Of a DNA stretch of 64,000 nt, positions 7,421-55,552 are shown one piece after another (the first letter of the stretch is position 1; every line of letters begins with the position of its first letter). The stretch is taken from the NCBI GenBank assembly GCA_949358305.1, contig OX442315.1, positions 22,470,427-22,534,426 of the forward strand, given 5' to 3'. A program made the translations under genes and the position numbers. The notes beneath the pieces are model-generated. The model was not told the origin of the DNA, did no database searches, and was given only the letters and a program-made list of their open reading frames with translations. The stretch comes from Strigamia acuminata. Its lineage: Eukaryota > Arthropoda > Chilopoda > Geophilomorpha > Linotaeniidae.

Positions 7421-7429
7421 TTGCCAATA

Positions 7430-7774
7430 ATGGGCAAAGCTAAAAAATTATCTCATGATGAAAAGGTGAGAATTCTGGAGCTTCGATGTGCAGGAAAAAA
7501 AATAAAAGAAATAGCTTCTGAACTCCAGAGATCTGAGTCTTCAATCTCAAAGTGCCTAACACGAATTAAAGAAGATGATAACGCCAAATTAGGACCAAGA
7601 AAACGCTCGGGAAGACCAAAAATCACTACAAAGCGAGATGTGACTGCCCTGAAAAATACGATTCATGCCAATCATTTTTCATCTTCAACTACTCTGGCTC
7701 GAAAGTGGTCTACTTCTATTAGAAGAAAGGTTTCCAGATCCACTGTTTGGCAACGGATTCAGAGGGCCATGTAA
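7430..7774 (+). pseudogene. Tc1/mariner-type transposase, N-terminal DNA-binding half only
   Basis: The 114-aa product begins MGKAKKLSHDEKVRILEL and shows a first helix-turn-helix (about residues 8-45), a basic linker with an AT-hook-like SGRPK motif (about 63-67) and a second helix-turn-helix-like segment (about 72-112, ending SRSTVWQRIQ). This is the bipartite paired-like DNA-binding region of Tc1-family transposases. The frame ends at a TAA directly after it, and I find no DDE catalytic domain in any frame of the next kilobase. Full-length family members are about 340 aa, so this is a truncated relic, or a DNA-binding-only derivative. I chose ATG 7430; an upstream in-frame TTG is not a credible eukaryotic start. 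Terminal inverted repeats were not found. Confidence 0.75.
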
Positions 7775-22833: not shown

Positions 22834-23653
22834 TGTCGCGTCCTACTTGGTATAGGTTTAAATAGCGCTAACGTGTAATACTTTACCTGTGATCAATTAT
22901 GTAAATACCCAAATGAATACCAAATGTATGTAAATAAACAGGTAATTTATTCACCAGGCTTTATGCCTTTAAAATACACTCAGTAATAATTCTAGAGTCG
23001 ACGTGGTCAGCGTCGAACAAAGGATTTCTCAAGATGGCGTCGTCGATTCCGCGTGGTCGGCGGAACAAAGGCGGCGTCTCGAGTTGTCGTTAATTCGTCA
23101 CGGATTCGTCTTCACGGACGCGGTGGAATGCTCTTTCGAGTCTTCTATCCGTGCCTGTTGTCTAGGGTTTGTTTAGCGTCGCAGAGGCCTCGTCTAGGAA
23201 CTTTGGGGTTCCCTACAAAGCACTCGGACACTTACTTCGGCGAATAATCGTCTGGGCGATTATTCTGGGTGATTTCACAAGGGCTATTCTCGTGCTTTCG
23301 CAGGAATAGCTCGCAAGTGACTTCGTGAGAGTTACAGTTTGCACTTTACTCAGCGATCCTCGATCAATCCTAACTTGTAGTTGAAGTTGGCCTGACGGTG
23401 AGGTAGTTGCTGTGTTCTTGGTGTCGTTTGTGTAAGTTCTGCCTTTAGGCGGGAAACACGGCCTTTTATGCAGTGGGGTGAAGGGCCGGCGATCAACCAA
23501 TGGGGGCTGACCACCAGCCGCTTCCTCCCCCTCGGGGCACACACCTGCCATGGGGAGGTGGAGCCAACTCGGGGGGGAACGACTCTTTATTCATAGTGAC
23601 TCAGAGGACAAGTATCCGCCCTGGGGGGACACTTATCCAACTGGGTCACCACA
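22834..23653 (-). repeat. 3' LTR of the Gypsy element
   Basis: 820 bp. On the element's strand it begins TGTGGTGACC and ends CGCGACA. It contains a TATA-like CATAAAAGG (about 23,462-23,470), an AATAAA (22,946-22,951), two stem-loops (23,242-23,265 and about 23,281-23,310) and an AAGATGGCG motif on the plus strand at 23,031. Confidence 0.95.
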
Positions 23654-23701: not shown

Positions 23702-26700
23702 TCATCGCTCTCCTCTGCGAAGAGCCGGCAGCACTCCTCTGCATGGGCGGAGGATCACGGGTGGCACTGCCGGTGGCGGTGGTGGTAAATCCGGGGGAAG
23801 AGAGGTTGTCAGATCCGCAGGATTCTGCCGCTCATTGATGAAATACTGTGGGTGACCACCGACGGGTTCGCCGATCAGTCCCGTACGCTCATGGATCCAA
23901 ATCCGGGTAGAGGCCGGGAATCGGTCTGGAACGAGCCGGATCCTTCGTGACTCGGCGCTCGACCCGGGTTTCCTGTGGGCCCGTAGGATACGGCGATGGA
24001 AGACGGCGTCCATGGTGGATCGGGCTTCTCTGTTTAGCCATTTGAGGATCGATTCGCCGTGATCATCGGAGTCAGTGATGCGCTGTCGCGTGAACTCCGA
24101 CATCTGGAGGAATGGGTATTCCACTCCCAACCTCAAGTAAAGCTGCGCTGCTGGGGGCGGCGGAGGCGATGGTGGAAGCGGAATCTCCATTGGGCTCTCC
24201 AACGGTGGCGTAGCCGGCTCTGCAGAGAGAGCGGCCAGCCCTGCCGCTGGTGGTGAAGGAGAGGGCAGCGGAGGAGTTCGGGGTCCTCGCTTGGAACGCT
24301 TCGGAATCAATATGGGTCGATTCGCGTGCCGCTTCTCCTTCGGGAATACCGGCTTTGGGGTCGGTATGTATGGTTGGACCGCCGCCTCTGGGGGGGCGGT
24401 CTCGATGGCCTGTGGGAGGCTCGCCGCTGTTCCTGGTACCTCCGGAACCTCCCGAATTGTTCGCAACAAGGAAGGGTGGACTCCGGGGTTCCGGTAGCGG
24501 AATGCTAACGAACGCATCTTTGAAAACTGTAGGCCTGGGTTTTCCGTATTTCTGGCCAGGTCGAAGCGCAGCGAGGCGGGCTCAGGAGTCCATCCGGCCC
24601 ATACCTGGTACAACGCCCGAGGAAGGTGAACTCCCTCACGGTCGACGATTGTCCAGGCCGCCATAGCTTGCCGACTGTCCAAGAAGACGCCCAGGGATAG
24701 CAGCTGGGCCAGTACGTTCGTCACAGCCAAATTCAAACTGCTCCGATGGCAGGGGTGAGCGCGGTCCGGATTGTCACTGAATTGCTGTGACAACGTCCGC
24801 ATCTGTTCGATCGCCCAGTTGATGTGGTGAGTTTGGGCGGCGTCGGCCTGTCGTATGGCCAACTCGGCAATCGCGGGGTTCTCGTATTCGGCCAGATATT
24901 CTTGTAGCTCGCTGAGTGGGGGATAGGCCGCTTCACGCCGGCATCGAGCGTCCATCTCTCGCTGGGCGTACCATCCGGCGTTGCGATAAGGTCGACACAC
25001 TCGTGGCGTTGGGGGTGACGGTGGACGGCCCAGCCCGGGTAGATTATCGTATCTGACCCGCTTCGGAGCTGGATCCCCCACCGGAATCATCCGGGGAGGG
25101 GTCCAAGCGGTCACGGCTGGGTTTGTACCCTCGAGGAGTGGCGGCCATCGCGATTGCACTTGTGGGGGCACAAGCGCGGTGGGCACAGCCGGTGTTGAGC
25201 CCGACGGCCGGTTGGCCGCGTATCCTCGGAAGGCGTTCTTCAATGCTACGGCCAGATCCTGTTTTGTAACCGGCCCATCTTTGTCCGACTCATCTGGGGA
25301 CATCTGTTCCTCCGTCAACTCGCCCAAATCGATCTCCGCTTGGAGCCTGGATGGTCCAGCCGTGGGTCCGAGACTCTGGGGTTCGGACCTTTTTGCGGCG
25401 GCCATCTCTCGCTCCTTCTCTAATCCCTTAGCTATCAGAGATTGTGCACGTATCTTCTGACGTACTTTTCGCTTCCGATTCCTCCTGGTGCTGGCGGCGA
25501 CGGACCTTCGTTGGGCCGTCCTCTGGGGGACGTCCGTCGGAGAATTCGGTCTCTGGTGTGATGAGACGGTTCGTCGCGACGAGGATTGATCTGACGACTG
25601 TGTGGTAATCGCCATGAACAACGAGGATCTTTTCTTTCCTCGATCTTGGTGTGTCTCGGTCCTCGCAGCCCAGTGGGCGGAAGATTCGACTGTTCGCTCA
25701 GCCCGCGCGTCGTCTGGCGAGGCAGGCTCGAGCGTTACTACTCGGCGACACTCCGAGCGCACGACAACTCGAGTTCGGGAACTGGAGCTGCTCGAGCGGC
25801 TGCGGTAGTCGCGGCTCGTTGACGGGCCGGCCTCTATTGGGGAGACGGCCTGTCTTCTTCGTGCGGGTCCGCGTGGGGCGGACTCCGCCGGACGCTTCGA
25901 TCTTCTGTGATGGCGGCGACTTCCCAGGATACCAGCGTGGTATAACTGCCACATCTCAGACTGCGTGGCCGTAAAATTCGCCGGCGGTATCCATCTGGGT
26001 GTCAGATGATCTTCTTCGATGTCGCGAAGCCATCTACGGATTTCTTCGGGGGAGAAACCGTTTCTCTCGAGAACTCGGGTTACTCCGTGAGTCTCGGTGC
26101 GCTTTAAGCGTTTGATCTCGTCGTCCACTATTCTCTGGCGGGCTGCCAAGGTCGGGGCCTCGCTCCACCTATGGGAGGTGTGCAGCTCGGCCACCGTGCC
26201 TGGGTAAGCCTCTTCCAGGTACCCGGAGTAAACGGGGCTCGGCGGATCCGCATCGGGTGGGATCCGCGGCCCCACTCGCTCCCTCATCTCCTTCGTCATG
26301 CACTCGACCAGCGTTTTTGATCGCTCGAATTTTTCCTCGAGGGTCCTGGAATACATCAATCGGATTTTCCAGGCGCTGGTCTCTGCAGGATAGGCCTGCC
26401 GCAGGTAAATCGGCAGGGCTCCGCGAAAGATGTTGTTGGCGGTTGACGCCGTCGGAGGCAGGGCGTCCCACGATTCTAGCGGGTCGACCTGAATAATTTT
26501 AGATCACAAGATTAATATAATAAATCCCAGTTAACGATGGGGATCAGAAATATGCTCAAGATCGACGGTGGCAGCAACTCCTTTCTTTTGTTGCGGCCGT
26601 CGGTCTTATTTTCTTGTTTCGCAGTTCTGCGATGATCTCCGCCGTCGTAGCGCTGATCCAACACTACTTTTGAACTCAGGTGATCCGCTTTTTAGGAAGG

Positions 26701-27547: not shown

Positions 27548-30500
27548 TTAGTTCTTCCCCACGACTTTGCCGTCCCGAATGAACGGATTATCGCTTCGTC
27601 GTGGTCGAAGGTTGATTTTCGACGTGCTCGTAGATCGTGACTCTACTTGCTCGTTCATCTCTGATGTGTTGGCATTTTTCTCATTATTAATTTTTTTATT
27701 TTCCATTTCAGAAGTACTTTCTTCTGCTTCCTCCCTCTCCGAAATTGCTTGCTCCGGCTGTGCTGGAGCCTCGTCGGCCGGAGATTCGGCGTCGAAGAAT
27801 TCATCCTCGTCCTCCGCTATATTTTCAGCTTCATTTGTTTTTTGGAACGTGTCGACCACGGTGCCCCCTTGGCCGCTGTGTGTCTGACCTTCCAGCCAGA
27901 TTTCTTGGGGAAACTCTGGCAGATATGGCCTTAAATCTCGGCCATGTATCGACTGAAAATTTTTGTTGTCCTCTAAGCGGCGTAGTTGGTATGCGTTGCC
28001 GCCGTGTTCGGCCACAATTACATAGGGACCGTCCCTCTTGTCGGCTAAACCTGCGGCGATGCCCCTCGCTGCATTGGACAACGTGTGTGCCTCCTTCCAC
28101 ACTAGATCATTCACTTTAAAGTTCGCGAAAGCGAGATCGCCTTCTTTATCTGCGATTCTTTCTCTCATGTTGAAAATATGCGCCATCATATGCTGGTATG
28201 TGTCGGATATAGTCTGTTCCAACCGGCACACGTACTCGTGTGGGCTCGATGGGTCTAATACGTTAACAGCTTCGGCAACGCGTGGGTCCCATGGCATCCT
28301 TAATTCGCGGGCGAAGTTGAGGTACGCCGGTGAGAATTCGCGTGTTCTTGACACGGTTGAGCGAATGCTGAAAGCGATTTCTCGCAGGTATTCGTCCCAT
28401 CGATTGTGAATATCGGTGAATACTGTCAGCGCATATTTTACGTCTTTATTTAATCTCTCGACTGGGTTTGTCTGAGGATTATACGTGGAGGTGTTTGATG
28501 CATCCATTTTAAATTTTCTACAGAAGTCCTTATATATTCTCGATCGGAATTGGGGGCCGTTATCCGAAATGAGTTTTCTGGGAAACCCAAATCGCATTGC
28601 CACGTCGTAAAGGCACTCGACTATGTTTTCAGCCGAGGGCTTCGCGAGGGCGTACAGCTCCGGCCATCGGGTGGCCACGTCCATAATTACGAGAATATAC
28701 ATGTTCTTGTTTCCCGTTGTGGGCTTGGGGCCCATCAAGTCTATGCTTAAGCAGTCAAACGGTGCGTAGGGTCCGAGAGACATGGCGTTTCTGGCCACTT
28801 TATCTCGCGGTCTGCACGCTTGGCACCGGGGGCAGTGTCGGATAAATTTCGTTATCTTTTGCCGCGCGCCCGGCCAGAAGAAAAGTTGTTTTACTCGATA
28901 AAGGGTCCTCGCCACGCCAGAATGGCTGGCGAGCGGGTGTCCGTGCATCAGCCACAACAGTCGGGTGTGCAGCGATGCCGGCACGACCACTTTAACCGAG
29001 TTTCCCGCTCCGCTGAGGTCATCTTGAAACGTCGGGTGGTATTTTACCAGGAGTTCATCATCTATGAGGTAGCTTGTTGCTTCTTTGACGAACTGTTTCC
29101 GGCGGTGTGGGTTTGTCATCCCTTCCGGAAATTCGCCGTTCAGCAAATATTGCGTTATAATTTGACATTTTGTGTCTGCTGCCTGGTGTTCGACGAACTC
29201 ACGTCTCGTGGGTGGAGCGTATTGTGTTTTTTCTTCAATTTTTGCTGTGAAGGCGCGTAGTAGTGTTTTGTGGGTTTCTCCGGGGGGCGGAGATTGAATT
29301 TCGGATGTTGAATTGTTTGTCCCAGCTGGCTGGTATGTTCGAGTCCAAAAACCACAAAACGTTCTATCTTCAGGCTCCATCACTGGTAGCTCGTTCGCCT
29401 TTCGCAAACGCCATATTCTCCGTGGAGTCGGGCAGTACAAGAGGTGGGTGTCGTCCTCGCCGTCGTCGTCTGGTCCCTGGGGGTCAGAGGCTGGGGCTCT
29501 CGAGAGGGCGTCGGCCACATGATTGTACTTCCCGGGGCGGTACGTAATTGTTATATCGCACGCCATTAACTCCAGTTGCCATCGTGCGAGTCGGCCGGAG
29601 GGTTCCTTGAGCTTCATCAACCAGCTTAGTGCCTGGTGATCTGTCTGAACCTCGAAGTTCGTGTACTCCAGATAGTCGCGAAATTTCCGAACTGCCCAAA
29701 TTACGGCTAGGCATTCTAGTTCCGTTGCCGTATAATTTTTCTCCGCGCCCTGTATTTTTCTGCTTATAAACATACAGGGTACTTCTTGCGAGATTCCGTT
29801 GTACACGTGGGTCTGCAGAAGGGCTGCACCCAGTCCGATTTTACTCGCGTCGGTGTGCAACACGAACGGTCGGTTTAGGTCCGGTAATGGCATCTTTTCG
29901 ACGTCAGCCAGCATTTGCTTGATAGTGCTAAATGCGGCCTCGCACTGGACCGTCCACTCAAACTCTTTATCCGTTCGTAAGAGATCCGTTATAGGCGCGG
30001 CCACTTCAGCCAGACCAGAGAGTAGTCGGCCGAAGAAATTGACCATGCCCATGAATCTCTGGACACCTTTTATATCTTCGGGGGCGGGGAATCCGTTTAT
30101 TGCTTTGACTTTTTCGGGGTCAATCGCGATTCCCTCGACTCCTATTCGATATCCTAGGAAGGCAAGTTCTTTCCTGCAAAACTTGCTCTTCCCTGGATGG
30201 ATGTGGAGTCCTGCCTTGGCTAGGCGAGAGACCACTCTATCGATGTGGTCTATATGTTCTTCGAATGTGTCCGACGTTATTATGATGTCGTCGAGATACG
30301 CCCACACGAAGTCGTGCAGCATATCTCCCAACACGCTTTCGATCAGTTTCTGGAACGTGCTCGGGGCGTTTACAAGCCCGAACGGCATCACGTTGAACAT
30401 TAGTCTTCCTATCGGGGAGTAGAAAGCCGTTTTCAGTTTGTCTTCGGGTTTTAGCTCCACTTGCCAATACCCCTTTGACAGGTCCATGGTGGTTACCCAC

Positions 30501-31683
30501 TTGAACGGGCTCAGTTCCCGGAGGATCGAGTCTATAGACGGCATCTGAATCGGGTCTATAACCGTTATCGCGTTCAGGGGGCGATAATCAATGCATAGTC
30601 GAGGTTCCGAGCCTGGACGCATCACCAGGACGATCCGCATGGCGTATTCGCCCAGGGCTTGCGTTACTATGCCCTTGTCGAGCATGTCTTGGCACATTTG
30701 CGTCACGATGTCTCTTTTCTGGGGGTTCATCCCCTTGTAAGGCACTCGAATCGGCTTGTCTGTGGTTAAGACTATTTCGTGTGTTGCTTCCGTCGTTCGA
30801 CCAGGTGTCTTGGTCAGAATTCTTTCATGCTTTCGAAGCACTCGCCTTAGTAGCGATGCCTCGTTAACACGCAGTGCTGCCTCCTCGACCAGGGTGTCCA
30901 CGACGTTACTCCTCTGTAATTCCAGAGTGAAGGCTGCGAAATCGTAATCTTGGACGAATTTTCGCAATCCTCTTCCGTATTCCTCTTTGTCCTTGGCTTC
31001 GTCCAGTAATTTTTGGGGAACTACGGGGACTGACCGTTCTCCCTCGGGACTTATCCAGTTCCATGAACGGGTTATCGGGTTTGGCTGAATTTTCAGTTTC
31101 GCCATGATGTCCATCCCTAGGAGGAATACTTTGTCGTGGGATGGCAAGACTATGAAGGGGTGGGACAGGTTCCCCCCCGTCCAGTCGATCATGATGCGAA
31201 CTACGCCCTTCGGCTTGACGTAGCCGTTGGCGGTGAGCAATTCTACGTTCGCGTTCACTTGTGCCACCTTCTTTCCAATATCCAAGTCTTTTACTATATC
31301 TTCGGATATGAATGAACGATCCGCTCCTGAATCCAGTAGACCGAACAATTTTTGGTTTTCTATCTCCACTGGCAGCATACACAGAGTTTCGCAATGTGCT
31401 TTCGTGACATTGCAGTGAAATACGCGTAATGTCTGGGGCTCAACCTCCAGATTGAACGGAAGGTCCGTCCAATCCATGTCGACCTCCGGTTTCGTTCTCA
31501 CTTGCATACTCGTTAACGTCACTTTTTCCTCCTTCTTCGGAACGATCTGTATGTGGTCTTTGATCTGTGCCTCTGCCAAGGCATGACCTGCGGGTCCAGT
31601 GTGATATTTCTTCTTTTTAATTTCCGCGGCTGGCGCAGACGAAGCTGAATTTATTTCGGCGACGCCTGCGCTTGGAAGTTTTT
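27548..31683 (-). CDS. pol: Gypsy pol polyprotein (protease, RT, RNase H, integrase)
   Basis: The frame is -1 to gag and enters by frameshift near 31,680; it has no ATG near its start. Counting from 31,579 it is 1343 aa. Protease has LLDSGAD (about 81-87), reverse transcriptase has YLDD (428-431), and RNase H has HTDAS (575), ELE (620) and TDHQAL (646). Integrase has an HHCC zinc-binding region (about 880-922) and a catalytic triad D947, D1006 (ISDNG), E1041 (VERLNK). A GPY/F module follows from about 1184. All expected catalytic residues are present and the frame is uninterrupted. The order of domains is Gypsy/Metaviridae, not Copia. The C-terminal 120 residues are Glu/Ser-rich and not recognised. 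Confidence 0.95.
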
Positions 31684-31684
31684 T
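31633..31684 (-). promoter_or_regulatory. -1 ribosomal frameshift signal at the gag-pol junction
   Basis: The gag frame contains A AAA AAC (31,684-31,678), a canonical slippery heptamer in correct phase. Six nucleotides later a 9-bp stem can form between GCGCAGGCG (31,671-31,663) and CGTCTGCGC (31,641-31,633), with one G-U pair and a 21-nt loop. The gag stop at 31,653-31,651 lies within the loop. The -1 frame is closed just upstream of the heptamer by a TGA and open downstream straight into pol. The permissible window is therefore only about 40 nt, and the heptamer lies in it. Confidence 0.8.
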
Positions 31685-34600
31685 GCCAGATCAGTTCTTA
31701 ACTCCATCATCATTTTCATCATGGTTTGCATGATGTCCTTTTCTTTGACGGTTTTCTCACATTTATCTGAGTAGTGGCCGTATTCTCCACAGCTGTAACA
31801 TTTGATGTTACTTTTATCCCCTGTGGGAGTGAATCCCGGTTTTTTCGGGACGAAGGGCGTCGGGAATCGTCTTTTTCCTCCCAATGCTCCTCTCGCTTTT
31901 GTTGCTTGCACGTGTGCTCTGAATTGTGTGATTGCCAAGGCCCGGTGTGCATGGTGCAAATAGGGACCTTGATCGTCGCATCCCGTCGATAAGTTTTCGA
32001 GGTGCTCATTTAGGGCTTCCTCGTCGCTCGATGCTGGCTCCTCTTCTTTAGCCGTGGCGAGAGGTGTTGTCTCTTCGACTTTCTCCATCTGGGTGGAGTC
32101 CGTCGAGGTCACCTGCATCGCCGTCGCTGCCGGTGCTTTCTTTGGGGCAGCTATCGGGTTGGCTGGAAGAATACTGCCTGCTTTAGGCGTCAGCATTCGT
32201 CCGAAGGATGCTTCGGTGAGACTCATTATGCCGCTCAAATATTCACTTGGCCTCATTAATTTTTCTGAGGTCTTGTGGCGTTCGGCGCTCGTCTGCAACC
32301 GCTTCTCGTGCGCGTCAGCTTCTTCCGGGGGCAGAGTGGCGTAATACCGCTGTTCTATTTCTAACGTGTTTGTTAGAAGATAGTTACTGACATCTTGGTA
32401 ATCGCCAGTGCGGGGTGCACGCATGTCTAGCAGAATTCTTTGCGAGTGGGCCGATAATCCTCCGTAAAAGATCATCGTAAAACCAGCGGGGTTTATTTCG
32501 TACGGCGCTCTTGCAAACAGGAGTTTCGCTCGGGCGTCGTAGTCGGCTAATGTTTCTCCTGGGGCTTGTCGTAGACCCCGTAATTTGTTACTGATCTCGT
32601 CTGGAGTCTCGCCGTATCGGAGATCGAAACGGACGAGAAAATCGTCCCAGGTTGGGTTTTTCAGTCCCTGGTACCATTCTCGAGCTGACCCCGTAGTTAG
32701 CTCCACTAGCCCGTGGGTTAGCATGTCGGCGACGGTGGCTTTTGTCGCTTTCTTGATACGCATTACTTCGTCCAGGAAGCGGTCTCCGGCCTTCCACGAA
32801 CCGTCAAATCGTGTTTGTATGTAGTGTTGCCAACGGATGTTACCCGTGGCTTCGCTGCTTGGTTCGTTTCGTACGCCATATTTACGCTTAACCCTCTCTC
32901 CAGCGCGATTATGTTCGTCGCCTGGATGGCCTAGATCGATTCCTTCTCTTCTGAAAGAGTTCAGCAGGGCTCGGCCTAGCTCAGACATCGTGTAATGTCG
33001 GCCAGATGAGTCCTGAAAGTTCCCTTCCTCCGAACGAGGGTTGGAGCTCCGGGAGGAGCGGTCTGAAGCATTCGGCCGGTTCGACCGGTGCCCATCGCTG
33101 TCTTCTTGACTCCTCCCTGTAGACGGTCGACTCGGATGGTCGTCGTCCGACGAATCGGAGGGCTCGGAGGGATCTCCTTGGGGGTGAAACCTCGGCCCTC
33201 TCGGTGGGGTCTCTCCGCCAGCCTTCTTCTGTTTCGAGCCTCCGGATGGCGGCGGCTCCCCTCCGTCGTTGTTCTCGTAAAAAGAATGCCATCTGTTTTC
33301 CTCGCTTTCGGGGCGTTCCCGATTTTTATTTGCGTTTTTCTTTTCGAGTAACGCGTCGATGGCTGCTCCCGTCTCGGATCTTTTTGAGGGGTGACGGTCC
33401 TTTGTTTTTGGGACCGACTCGTCTCTCTTTTGAGATTTCCCCCTTTTCGCCGTTTTTGCCGGCTTTGTTGCACCTTCTCCTGTGTCGGTATCAGAGCCGC
33501 TGGGGGGTTCTGGTTTCCGTTTCAGGTTTTCTTCATTTTTCTTCCTGTCCGAGACGTCTTGTGCGTACTCTTTCTGGAACTTTTCTGTCTCCTTCTCCCA
33601 GTTTTCGGCTTCCCATCTTTTTTGCTCATCTATTATAGCTTGTTTCTTCGCTTTGTACTCTTCGGTCCATCTGACTCGATCCCACTCTTCTTTCTCTTTC
33701 AGAAACTGTTCTTTTTCTTTTCTGGCTTCCTCTTCTCTCAACCTCTCGCGATGTTGTTCTTCCCATTTCTGATGTTGTAGAATGGCCTCTTTTCGCAACA
33801 TTTGTAGTTTTTCTGTTTTTCTTTGAGCTATTAGCGCTTGAAATTGGTCCTCGTACTCTTGAGCTTCTCGATGTCGCCCTTCTACTGTTGCGTTCCATTC
33901 TTTTCGAATTTTAGCTTCTCGTTCTTCCCTCATTTTTTGGACCAGTTTCTCTGTTCTCTCGGTGGTTCTTCTCTCGCGTTGCTCCCTTTCTTCCTCTTCC
34001 TTCCAGAGTTCTCGCCGCTCTGCGCTCAGCCTTCGTTGGCGACTAGTCGCTTCTTGTCTGGCTTCCTCGCGGGCCTTCTCTCTGGATTCGTGAAGTGTTC
34101 GGTTGGGGTCTGGCGCGAAACCTCCGGTGTCACTGGGCGTTACCTGGGGCATGGGCGTCTCCGCTGCTGGTCTTGCGACCGGCGTCGGGGCTTGTGCCGC
34201 ACAGATAGCGTCAGTGAGTAGGGTAATCGATTCCCAGACTGACGTTCCTACTGGAATGTCTATCATCGCTTTTAGCTGGGCAGCTTGCTGCGTCAACCGA
34301 ATTAGGTGAGATACTTCGAAGGAAACAACTGCAGGACTCGCCGTAACTCGGGGGGTTATCGGGGTCCCGCCGTCGTTTTTCCGTGGGGTTTGTTTTACGG
34401 ACGTCTGAGCCGTTGGTGGCGATGGGTCTGTGCCGATCGTGACCGTTCTTTTCGGAGCTTCATCCGTCTCCTCGGTCATCAATATCGATACTCGTCCTGG
34501 TGATATCTCGCGAATTTCTTCTCGATTTTCTATGGCTTCCGGATCGGTATCTTCGAAGGGTTGCATATTCAAGGGAACCCGCTCTCGCTCTGGCCCGTCT

Positions 34601-34791
34601 AGGGCCGCGAGCGATGCAGCTTGCTCCTCTTTCTGCGCCTTCGCTCTCCTTTTATTCGCTCGGGCTTTCGCCTTTGCGGACATTTCAGGGACGGGACCAT
34701 CCGACCTTAGGTGGTAGTCGGAGGTCCTTTTTCCCTTCTCGGGCATTCTCTGCTCGGTGTCAGACGTGGATTGCTCATCTTTGTCTGACAT
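31651..34791 (-). CDS. gag: Gypsy gag polyprotein
   Basis: 1046 aa from ATG 34,791 with a leader of about 95 nt after the 5' LTR. An acidic/basic N-terminus is followed by a very long charged, probably coiled-coil segment (roughly 230-435, rich in Glu, Arg, Lys). A disordered Ser/Arg/Asp region follows, then a retrotransposon capsid-like domain (about 655-800, with WYQGLKNPTWDDFLVRF and LRQAPGETLADYDARAK) and one CCHC zinc knuckle near the C-terminus (CYSCGEYGHYSDKC). It forms the particle and packages element RNA. It is two to three times the length of ordinary Gypsy gags, mainly because of the coiled-coil and disordered parts. It ends 39 codons after the knuckle, downstream of an in-frame slippery heptamer. 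Confidence 0.9.
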   Translation of the reverse strand: MSDKDEQSTSDTEQRMPEKGKRTSDYHLRSDGPVPEMSAKAKARANKRRAKAQKEEQAASLAALDGPERERVPLNMQPFEDTDPEAIENREEIREISPGRVSILMTEETDEAPKRTVTIGTDPSPPTAQTSVKQTPRKNDGGTPITPRVTASPAVVSFEVSHLIRLTQQAAQLKAMIDIPVGTSVWESITLLTDAICAAQAPTPVARPAAETPMPQVTPSDTGGFAPDPNRTLHESREKAREEARQEATSRQRRLSAERRELWKEEEEREQRERRTTERTEKLVQKMREEREAKIRKEWNATVEGRHREAQEYEDQFQALIAQRKTEKLQMLRKEAILQHQKWEEQHRERLREEEARKEKEQFLKEKEEWDRVRWTEEYKAKKQAIIDEQKRWEAENWEKETEKFQKEYAQDVSDRKKNEENLKRKPEPPSGSDTDTGEGATKPAKTAKRGKSQKRDESVPKTKDRHPSKRSETGAAIDALLEKKNANKNRERPESEENRWHSFYENNDGGEPPPSGGSKQKKAGGETPPRGPRFHPQGDPSEPSDSSDDDHPSRPSTGRSQEDSDGHRSNRPNASDRSSRSSNPRSEEGNFQDSSGRHYTMSELGRALLNSFRREGIDLGHPGDEHNRAGERVKRKYGVRNEPSSEATGNIRWQHYIQTRFDGSWKAGDRFLDEVMRIKKATKATVADMLTHGLVELTTGSAREWYQGLKNPTWDDFLVRFDLRYGETPDEISNKLRGLRQAPGETLADYDARAKLLFARAPYEINPAGFTMIFYGGLSAHSQRILLDMRAPRTGDYQDVSNYLLTNTLEIEQRYYATLPPEEADAHEKRLQTSAERHKTSEKLMRPSEYLSGIMSLTEASFGRMLTPKAGSILPANPIAAPKKAPAATAMQVTSTDSTQMEKVEETTPLATAKEEEPASSDEEALNEHLENLSTGCDDQGPYLHHAHRALAITQFRAHVQATKARGALGGKRRFPTPFVPKKPGFTPTGDKSNIKCYSCGEYGHYSDKCEKTVKEKDIMQTMMKMMMELRTDLAKNFQAQASPK

Positions 34792-34885: not shown

Positions 34886-35705
34886 TGTCGCGTCCTACTT
34901 GGTATAGGTTTAAATAGCGCTAACGTGTAATACTTTACCTGTGATCAATTATGTAAATACCCAAATGAATACCAAATGTATGTAAATAAACAGGTAATTT
35001 ATTCACCAGGCTTTATGCCTTTAAAATACACTCAGTAATAATTCTAGAGTCGACGTGGTCAGCGTCGAACAAAGGATTTCTCAAGATGGCGTCGTCGATT
35101 CCGCGTGGTCGGCGGAACAAAGGCGGCGTCTCGAGTTGTCGTTAATTCGTCACGGATTCGTCTTCACGGACGCGGTGGAATGCTCTTTCGAGTCTTCTAT
35201 CCGTGCCTGTTGTCTAGGGTTTGTTTAGCGTCGCAGAGGCCTCGTCTAGGAACTTTGGGGTTCCCTACAAAGCACTCGGACACTTACTTCGGCGAATAAT
35301 CGTCTGGGCGATTATTCTGGGTGATTTCACAAGGGCTATTCTCGTGCTTTCGCAGGAATAGCTCGCAAGTGACTTCGTGAGAGTTACAGTTTGCACTTTA
35401 CTCAGCGATCCTCGATCAATCCTAACTTGTAGTTGAAGTTGGCCTGACGGTGAGGTAGTTGCTGTGTTCTTGGTGTCGTTTGTGTAAGTTCTGCCTTTAG
35501 GCGGGAAACACGGCCTTTTATGCAGTGGGGTGAAGGGCCGGCGATCAACCAATGGGGGCTGACCACCAGCCGCTTCCTCCCCCTCGGGGCACACACCTGC
35601 CATGGGGAGGTGGAGCCAACTCGGGGGGGAACGACTCTTTATTCATAGTGACTCAGAGGACAAGTATCCGCCCTGGGGGGACACTTATCCAACTGGGTCA
35701 CCACA
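34886..35705 (-). repeat. 5' LTR of the Gypsy element
   Basis: Offset exactly 12,052 bp from the 3' LTR and identical to it as far as I can read. Transcription would start on the minus strand about 30 bp downstream of the TATA-like box at about 35,514-35,522. The poly(A) signal copy lies at 34,998-35,003. Confidence 0.95.
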
Positions 35706-52576: not shown

Positions 52577-55552
52577 TCAGCCTAAAGGCTGCGTCTCTCG
52601 TAACAACCATTCGAGGGCTTGTGGACGGCCCTGTTTTTCTAATTCCTTACCGATCACCTCGCGGCATTGTTGATGGTAATTGTCGAGCCACTCAATCTGT
52701 AATAATGGATTCTATTGTAATCAAATTAATTATAACCAACTGGGATGCAGTACCTCCTTTGATGTTAACATTGATGGCTCAAACATTTTGATTTGAATCG
52801 GGACTAAAGTGATTGGTTGGAAGGTTAGAAAGGTTTGGTTGCGGAAATTGTGTTTTGTTTCAGCTTTTTTAACCAATACAACGTTTTCTATTCGGATACC
52901 AAACTTGTTCTCCTCGTAATAGCCTGGTTCTAAAAAAAAAATTAAACATTTATTATAATTAAATTTCTTCTATTGTAATAAGTGAAAAATAAATTAACCG
53001 ATTGTTACTATCATTCCCTCTTGAAGACCTGGATCATCGGGCATTACCCGATTTCCAATACCCATAGGGCCTTAATAATGAATAAAAAAAAATTAATTAA
53101 AGTTCTAAATTTTCATTTTTTTCTTCTTCTTTTACCTTCGTGAACATTCAAATATGAGCCAACTCCATGGCCTGTTCCATGTTGGTAGTCCAATCCTTGT
53201 TCCCACAACGCAGTTCGTGCTAATGTGTCTAACATTTGGCCTGCGGTTTTGAAAATTATGATGATATTAAGTCTAAAAATGTTTTACAACTTCACCTTTC
53301 AGGTAATGGGGAAAGATTGAAGTCGACAACGCGATGTGGCCTTTCAAAACGCACGTAAAGCATTGCCGTTCGTATCGCGATGGAGTTCCGAAATGAACCG
53401 TTCGTGTTACATCTGTTGTTCCGTCTCGATACTGACCACCCGAATCGCATAAGTAGAGTTCGTGAGTAGTGACGGCTCGATTAGTCTCTTCTGCTGGTCT
53501 GTAATGAATTATCGAACCATTCGGACCAACGCTTGAAATTGTATCGAAACTGAGACCAATAAAGTCATGCTGTTCTCTAAAAAAATGAATAAAATAAGCA
53601 AAAGCAACGTAGGTAGTTAGAATGTCTTCACTTTCTGAACTGGAGTAGTTGTTCGGCGCCACTTATTTCAGTTACATTTCCTTTGGGAACCTCAGTCTCT
53701 AACCAAGCGAAATATTCGCACAAGGCAACAGCATCTTTTATATGCGCTTGCTGCATCCCCGCAATTTCGACCGGGTTTTTAACCGCTTTCATGGCGGCTA
53801 TAGGTGATGGCTCAATTAGCCGCCGGTTCTTAAATTTAAAAAAAAAGTTTTCAGTATTAGAACTTGATTTTTTGTTTTACTTTTACCCACTTCTGGAATT
53901 AAGCTGTGAATGCCATAACTAGACGTTTTATTCACCTACAAAAATTCGACAATTTAATAATAATTATGAATAGCGTTTTTTTTTCTCATTTACATACCCA
54001 AACTTTTCCTGATGTTTCCAAAATTATCGTGTTTATGAAGTCTTTGAAACTAGTGTATGGATGAATGTGTACTGTTATTGCAGAGAGGTTTTCTGGTTTT
54101 AAATAATTTATGACCGTATTTGATAATTTAGACTCATCTACAAGAAAACTAAAATAAACAAACAAAATATTAGAAATTTAGTGCAAACGCGATAAATGGA
54201 TATGCTTAACTGCACAGAATGCTGAGTTAAAACTACATAAGAAAAAAATACCGGGTTGAAATCGATGTCCGAACCACGTAAATTTAGTAACCCTAGAAAT
54301 AATTTCATCATTACAAACCGAATCAAAAAAACACTGCACAATAATTACAGGCAATATCATCCAGGGCAGTAACCACACAAATACCGTACTGCCTCGATTT
54401 AACGCCGGGGCGTTTATTCATTTTTTCTAGTTGACCCCCCCGGCGTTCATTCAAAGCCCGGCGATTATTCGCGCCGGGCGTCTACCCGAAAAAAAAAATT
54501 GGAAAGCCACTCATTGCTAGCTATTCTTCGATGTTTCGACCAAAAGACCTCTCAAAACGTTTAAAAAACGTTTCAACCCGGCGTTTAAACAAACCCGGCG
54601 TTCATTTAAGGCCGGCGTTTATTGCCATTTCGTCCTCAGTTTGCCCGGCGCTTAATCAGGAGCCGGCGTTTAGATACGACCGGCGTTAAATCGAGGCAGT
54701 ACGGTAGTCGCATTTTTTTCTGCCATTTTCGCCTGCACATTTCTAATTTTATCTTGCCAAGGGCTACCTGAAATATTATTAAATATTATTACCAAAAATG
54801 CAATGATAAATTCAAAATATTATCAATAATACCTGTATAAGTAACAGGATGAACCACGATTGGGGATGTAGGAGGTAAAGGTTGATCATCCCAAACTACA
54901 TCTATTAAATTCGAATGCACGGGAACTAAACTGTGTCCATTCGCCTCGAGTTGCTTCGACAATGGAGTCCAAGCATCTGAACCCATTAAGAACGGATCTA
55001 CTCCAACTCGACTGCCCAATGGAAGCACTTTATTCAACCATGCAGCCTGAGAAATAGGATGAGGAATGCCTGCAACGATTATTATTTGTAATCTTTCAAA
55101 GAAATCGACATAGAGTACAAATTACCTTCTTTCATTAATACCCAATTCTGATCGAGTTCTTCTATTGCCTGTAGAAAATATCGCCCGTCAGTCCACAGAG
55201 CAGCTTCTCGTTCGGTCACCACTGCCGTTCCTGAATAAATAAATAGCAAAACAAAATTGATTATTTGTTTAAATTGATGTCGGAATACAAAAAGCACCCA
55301 TCGATCCAGTGAAACCAGAAATAAAAGCTCTTCTTTTATCGCATGCCGCAACATATTCGCTCTATATTATCCCAAAAAAACGTAGAAAAATCATTAATTT
55401 TAAGGAAATTGATTAATTCTTTTCTGTTCTTTAACCTGGTGGTAATCATTTGATGGGATTATGTAAGCATGTAAAGCTTCTGTCACGTAGTTGGTGTTTT
55501 TCATCAGCAATCTCAGATTTTTAAGTAAACTACCTGTTTGTTTAGGAGCCAT
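52577..55552 (-). CDS. XPNPEP1: Cytosolic Xaa-Pro aminopeptidase 1, coding exon interrupted by a MITE
   Basis: Exons in phase: 55436-55552, 55298-55361, 55126-55230, 54833-55069, 54703-54767, 54388-54349, 54211-54292, 53998-54148, 53891-53935, 53632-53828, 53296-53576, 53136-53240, 52999-53070, 52754-52929, 52577-52696. The product is 618 aa (human 623). It removes an N-terminal residue that precedes proline. The C-terminal pita-bread domain keeps the metal ligands in [27 protein letters not shown] and IRIENVV. The exon at 54,349-54,767 is split by a TA-flanked inverted-repeat element (54,382-54,706); the two inner borders given here assume splicing at GT/AG within its ends. If the element were retained, a TAA at 54,672-54,670 would stop translation. 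Apart from this the gene is intact. Confidence 0.9.
54382..54706. mobile_element. MITE with 27-bp perfect terminal inverted repeats inside XPNPEP1
   Basis: Ends are TACCGTACTGCCTCGATTTA... on both sides, 27 bp identical in inverted orientation, with TA as the likely target duplication (54,382-54,383 and 54,705-54,706). The 321-bp body holds several internal CCGGCGTTTA-type motifs in both orientations and no coding frame. TA duplication and small size suit a Tc1/mariner-class non-autonomous element. Removing the element and one TA restores the continuous family reading frame of the host exon. Confidence 0.9.

Follow-up and report, generated by a model that had tools for sequence, protein, structure and literature searches.

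A young pogo/Tigger-type MITE lies within a coding exon of XPNPEP1, the gene for the cytosolic Xaa-Pro aminopeptidase, in the window, i.e., the whole stretch of 64,000 nucleotides that we analyzed. We consider it fairly likely that the MITE is a recent and probably segregating insertion that disrupts the gene, with leaky splicing at most. We favor this explanation over efficient removal of the element as a new intron (an introner), which we regard as possible but rather unlikely.

The element (subfamily A; positions 54382..54706, no strand assigned) is 325 bp long when both copies of the TA are counted, and the net insertion is 323 bp. Its terminal inverted repeats, each 27 bp including the TA, are located at 54382..54408 on the plus strand and at 54680..54706 on the minus strand, and they are complementary at 27 of 27 nucleotides. 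The window copy is flanked by TA on either side. The first-pass annotation, which had described a 325-bp segment with perfect 27-bp inverted ends and flanking TA, is confirmed by the sequence. The element is short, has terminal inverted repeats and a target site duplication, leaves no room for a transposase, and occurs in many near-identical copies, as is characteristic of a MITE.

The host is a centipede, as its XPNPEP1 is most similar, among the matches listed, to that of Strigamia maritima (86% identity). Spliced alignment with the S. maritima protein (615 aa, P0001) places XPNPEP1 at 52580..55552 on the minus strand and gives 618 codons, 543 of which are identical. The alignment contains 13 native introns, each 55-74 nt in length. 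Its fourteenth gap spans 314 nt and corresponds to the MITE cut at 54702/54389; the only residues added at this gap relative to S. maritima are T, Y, and G. The interrupted exon consists of an upstream half (54707..54767; ...KMAEKNAT) and a downstream half (54349..54381), both on the minus strand. When the MITE is removed, the alignment of the protein with human XPNPEP1 (3ctz) has no gap at this position, in agreement with the earlier claim that the spacing of the human enzyme would be restored, and the site is ungapped and uninserted in all 30 aligned orthologs (picked from 120 listed), including S. maritima. The spliced alignment and the orthologs also support the earlier assignment of the element to a coding exon of XPNPEP1; its description as lying between codons did not hold strictly, as the target TA spans the codons ACT/ATT.

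Outside the MITE, XPNPEP1 is intact. If the MITE is left unspliced, the additional 323 bp break the frame, and translation ends at about the 12th codon, upstream of the M24 domain (Pfam; protein residues 315-534). A search of the genome with the S. maritima XPNPEP1 protein gave 11 matches, all of which belong to this locus, and the MITE-bearing exon itself was unmatched; no second XPNPEP1 locus was found in this search of the whole assembly.

The first-pass annotation had proposed a genome search with the 27-bp end. This search, allowing up to two mismatches, gave 198 + 195 = 393 matches in 237.5 Mb (157 contigs), and the reversed control gave none under the same conditions; thus, the number of ends is far above chance. 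In a search with the whole element, 34 of the 40 scored places (out of 422 candidates), the window copy included, were identical over 325 bp. Exact 26-mer ends, which were retrieved in three sets split by the preceding base (90, 46, and 81), totaled 217 and merged into at least 153 distinct copies, 64 of which have both ends exact. No exact 26-mer end was seen on contigs C2 and C7, which may mean nothing. We read the flanks of 66 of the 153 copies, which were taken in the order of the contigs or for the quality of their match (C1 and C3 supplied 52), and resolved 58, i.e., all but eight. Among the copies with flanks read, 24 of 30 in subfamily A (325 bp) are identical, as are all 10 in subfamily B (314 bp), which shares 82.7% identity with A; shorter relatives of 150-175 bp also exist. 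Except for the window copy, the TA at the ends is present by construction, the copies having been cut with a TA-ended motif. The identity among the copies shows that the family is young. A search for variants of the inverted repeat gave 226 matches; among the 100 listed, 99 have the same end and one has TACTG for TACCG, and no other family was seen.

The genome contains 31 matches to the DDE_1 transposase domain. Three of these are in open frames of 596 aa each with equal score, and in all three exactly 774 bp separate the end of the domain match from an exact MITE-family end (match C8:287958-288470, end C8:289244; match C8:3651587-3652099, end C8:3650813; match C3:1655444-1655956, end C3:1656730). 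The segment read from the third, L084, has a frame of 443 aa that is open on its 5' side and matches DDE_1 at E=3.4e-17. Since this segment shares 95.7% identity with the MITE over its terminal 115 bp, the MITE is related at its end to these coding elements, which probably mobilize the family. No second exact MITE end was present near C3:1655444 in the scan of exact ends. A related coding element thus combines a DDE_1 transposase with the common end, and the protein is restored without a gap when one TA is kept, which identifies TA as the target; both features are those of the pogo/Tigger class. A search of the PDB with the transposase gave no match at or under 0.1. The ends of Tigger elements resemble CCTCGATTTAACG, which was not used in the analysis. 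In Tigger, the inverted repeats range from 8 to 33 bp and the transposase frames from 300 to 685 aa, according to the part of PMC9219625 that describes them; the passages on pogo in PMC7325037 give no sequence of the inverted repeat.

On either strand, the MITE reads TACC/GT...AG/TACGGTA, so that removal between GT and AG leaves CCTACGGTA after the target TA. On the minus strand of the window, the candidate 5' splice site is acc/GTACTG (54701..54702), and the candidate 3' splice site is gaggcAG/TACGG (54389..54390). The spliced alignment selected exactly these sites, giving an open and nearly collinear protein, as would be expected if the spliceosome removed the 314 nt. This agrees with the first-pass annotation, which had proposed that splicing between the GT at 54702 and the AG at 54389 would remove 314 nt and leave nine bases, i.e., three codons; in this frame, CCTACGGTA is indeed Thr-Tyr-Gly. 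Depending on the frame, the nine bases are read as YLR, PTV, or TYG, without a stop in any frame in both orientations. The equivalence of the two orientations, also asserted earlier, is borne out by the donor, the acceptor, and the residue, which are the same on both strands. The candidate sites are located within 4 and 7 nt, respectively, of the two ends of the element, all 217 exact ends contain them, and the similarity between copies extends to the candidate splice boundaries.

We scored these sites with a weight matrix built from the 13 native introns of one gene, XPNPEP1. The MITE donor (2.4; native donors 0.8 to 7.9 when each was left out in turn) scored above three of the 13 native donors, and its hexamer GTACTG is also that of one native donor of the gene (gag/GTACTG; intron at 52697..52753, minus strand). 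The acceptor (-3.1; native acceptors 0.8 to 13.7) scored below all 13. The pyrimidine fraction upstream of the acceptor is 0.33 (native 0.40-0.87), the GC content of the MITE is 0.49 (native introns 0.12-0.30), and the candidate intron of 314 nt compares with native introns of 55-74 nt. The donor is thus within the native range, whereas the acceptor, the composition, and the length argue against efficient splicing. Better-scoring donors (54384 and 54389) and acceptors (54549, 54733, 54526, and 54482, among others) are present in or near the window copy. The donor-like site at 54384 (minus strand; CG/GTA completed by the flank) is the best-scoring one around the window copy (6.2); its first three bases would be present in any copy that shares this end.

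The sense RNA of the MITE has a predicted fold of -148.9 kcal/mol (z -8.7), in which both splice sites are within the paired stem of the inverted repeats. In isolated folds of 41 nt, the donor side is unusually structured (z -2.7) and the acceptor side is unremarkable (z +1.2); thus, the argument from the hairpin needs pairing of both ends. Such a predicted stem cuts both ways, as it can mask the splice sites or draw the exon borders toward each other. In a search of the genome, the scar TACCTACGGTA was not enriched (49 matches, compared with 150 for the reversed control), and no transcript-derived fragment of fitting length was found at or under 1e-80 among 1216 candidates; both results argue against efficient splicing.

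To place the other copies, we joined the flanks of 57 non-window copies and read all frames; the window copy was left out as it had been chosen for being exonic. Frames of at least 30 aa that span the junction, with at least 10 on each side, were obtained for 48 of the 57. ORF length was uninformative alone, and for the XPNPEP1 copy it ranked an incorrect frame first; scoring of the sites by codon usage was dropped as too weak (the known XPNPEP1 site scored -6.5). The 83 segments were scanned with Pfam, an approach that may overlook exons with short frames. This examination placed one of the 57 copies inside a coding exon of the host, which answers the earlier suggestion to list exonic copies. 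The copy (L005, C10:4157343-4157667) is identical in sequence and interrupts an exon of a CYP4-like P450. Once joined, the exons match CYP4B1 across the junction (E=1.2e-11), with one extra residue in CYP4B1 eight residues before it, and splicing at the element ends would give ...NNRPINI-PTV-YSFITL, again in an open frame.

Three other copies were rejected as exonic. L049 is separated by 15 nt from the apparent start of a downstream DUF4147 exon, L037 (fn3 exon) lies just past an apparent donor, and L091 sits in an apparent donor. DUF4147 is glycerate kinase-like. In the case of L049 (G000:C1:35131383), a 314-bp B copy, the branch point of the intron may be displaced into the element. In the case of L091 (G000:C3:33639269), a B copy is inserted in the GTA of an apparent 5' splice site of an exon without a Pfam match, and the TA duplication preserves the GTA and alters the bases after it. 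Four copies are in apparent mobile-element ORFs, namely, L060 (ORF with a zinc knuckle), L015, and, as judged by eye, L016 and L068. The ORF at L015 resembles, by eye, a gag-like ORF in the window (31651-34791). That ORF is one of three on the minus strand (with 23702-26359 and 27548-31579) that are enclosed by 820-bp direct repeats (22834-23653 and 34886-35705; 100% identical), a structure that looks by eye like a young, Gypsy-like LTR retrotransposon of about 12.9 kb. Elsewhere in the window, a 117-aa ORF (7421-7774, plus strand) resembles, by eye, a Tc1-like transposase in its N-terminal HTH part.

The insertion sites are AT-rich, with a GC content of 0.326 within 50 bp, compared with 0.374 beyond 600 bp (n=57). 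The density of TA is 57.5 per kb in the XPNPEP1 exons and 72.4 in the flanks. From these densities and the 14,992 gene models reported for S. maritima in the part of PMC4244043 that we used, with about 1.4 kb of coding sequence assumed for each, about four of the 57 copies would be expected in host exons without selection. As Pfam is assumed to see perhaps half of the exons, one exonic copy indicates neither a clear depletion nor an enrichment. No preference for exons or GC-rich sites was apparent in the sampled copies.

We propose that the element is a non-autonomous pogo/Tigger-type MITE that would have been moved in trans by transposase from the related DDE_1-encoding elements and pasted into a TA inside the XPNPEP1 exon. 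The GT and AG belong to the inverted repeat, the presumed recognition sequence of the transposase; because both lie within the repeat, they would travel with the ends to every landing site, and they were probably not shaped for splicing. In an mRNA that retains the MITE, the frame would be shifted and translation would halt around codon 12 without reaching the catalytic domain, and leaky splicing at the element ends may rescue some transcripts, leaving three codons. We infer that splicing is poor from the weak acceptor, the high GC content, the low pyrimidine content, the length, the position of the sites in the predicted stem, and the rarity of exonic copies, and that the insertion segregates. 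Against the disruption of XPNPEP1, the MITE donor outscores some native donors and shares a hexamer with one, and a second identical copy is present in the P450 exon. In addition, XPNPEP1 is otherwise intact and the search gave no second locus, so that the animal would have to tolerate a homozygous null.

The same observations would speak for efficient removal of the 314 nt by the spliceosome at the GT and AG of the inverted repeats, giving a new and nearly silent intron, as would the collinear protein, the stop-free residue, and the open frame of the P450 copy after the same splice. There are precedents. Introners of Aureococcus carry both splice sites and add codons, as described in part of PMC9860276, and those of Amoebophrya have hairpin-forming ends that are proposed to bring the exon borders together, as described in part of PMC7789003. 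The acceptor, composition, length, and hairpin, the AT-rich sites, the single host-exon copy among 57, and the lack of scars weigh against this explanation, and we give it a minority share of our belief. With the same reservation, a pogo/Tigger MITE family of a land arthropod might make introns itself, each repeat supplying a donor and, on the opposite strand, an acceptor, with nine stop-free bases, in either orientation and in any phase.

A third explanation is that the MITE is spliced out at cryptic sites in or beside the element, with a mixture of in-frame and out-of-frame products. Exonic Tc1 elements of C. elegans are reportedly removed from pre-mRNA, for which Rushforth and Anderson (1996) are cited. 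In C. elegans rsd-3, an exonic Tc1 left 48 bp in frame in three of five cDNA clones, and the authors allowed for splicing or for imprecise excision from the transgene array (from the relevant part of PMC4910058). The better-scoring donors and acceptors in or near the window copy might permit such a rescue, but the native introns of XPNPEP1 are only 55-74 nt long, and we consider it improbable. An old intron at this position, or an assembly error, is hardly credible; we found nothing in its favor, the insert is identical to many copies elsewhere, the assembly has a QV of 59.6 (if it is the same assembly as in the part of PMC10556566 that reports it), and all 30 orthologous proteins are ungapped, although an intron that is cleanly spliced out would leave no trace in a protein alignment.

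If the MITE is unspliced, it exemplifies young MITEs that break host genes in one individual. If it is spliced, an intron would have been caught at its birth, in a land animal and during a burst of copies that are identical; its design would be symmetrical and frame-safe, and a direct test of transposon-made introns would be possible. The family, its probable transposase source, and the two exonic copies make the question of splicing answerable.

Our search of the main journal literature gave nothing on this MITE family or on introners in Strigamia among the matches listed, and neither Strigamia nor myriapods, arthropods, or centipedes are named in the main text of the survey of introners (PMC9860276). 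Introners are enriched in genes in 161 of 175 published genomes. Families with such enrichment tend toward GC-rich sites, and those of Symbiodinium have terminal inverted repeats and target site duplications, as stated in part of the same survey. Our MITE resembles the Symbiodinium introners in having both features, and those of Aureococcus in carrying both candidate splice sites and in the codons that it would add, although the added bases number nine here and 12 there. It differs from the published introners in that it belongs to a land arthropod, is known here from DNA, and shows no apparent enrichment in genes among the sampled copies, and from the gene-enriched families in that its sites are AT-rich. 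As in the case of Tc1 in C. elegans (described in part of PMC4910058), a TA-inserting transposon is found in an exon, and an in-frame remnant is possible; in contrast to Tc1, whose products were shown by cDNA, the MITE has its candidate sites at fixed positions within the two ends, and the remnant would always be 9 nt. In structure, the MITE is close to pogo/Tigger transposons (as described in part of PMC9219625): it has the TA duplication and an inverted repeat of 27 bp, and its coding relatives have a DDE_1 frame of 596 aa. A CENP-B-type N-terminal domain was not seen in the C-terminal 443 aa of the frame that were read, nor was the second inverted repeat of the coding element, and in the TA target, the inverted repeat, and the DDE_1 frame the family agrees with this class.
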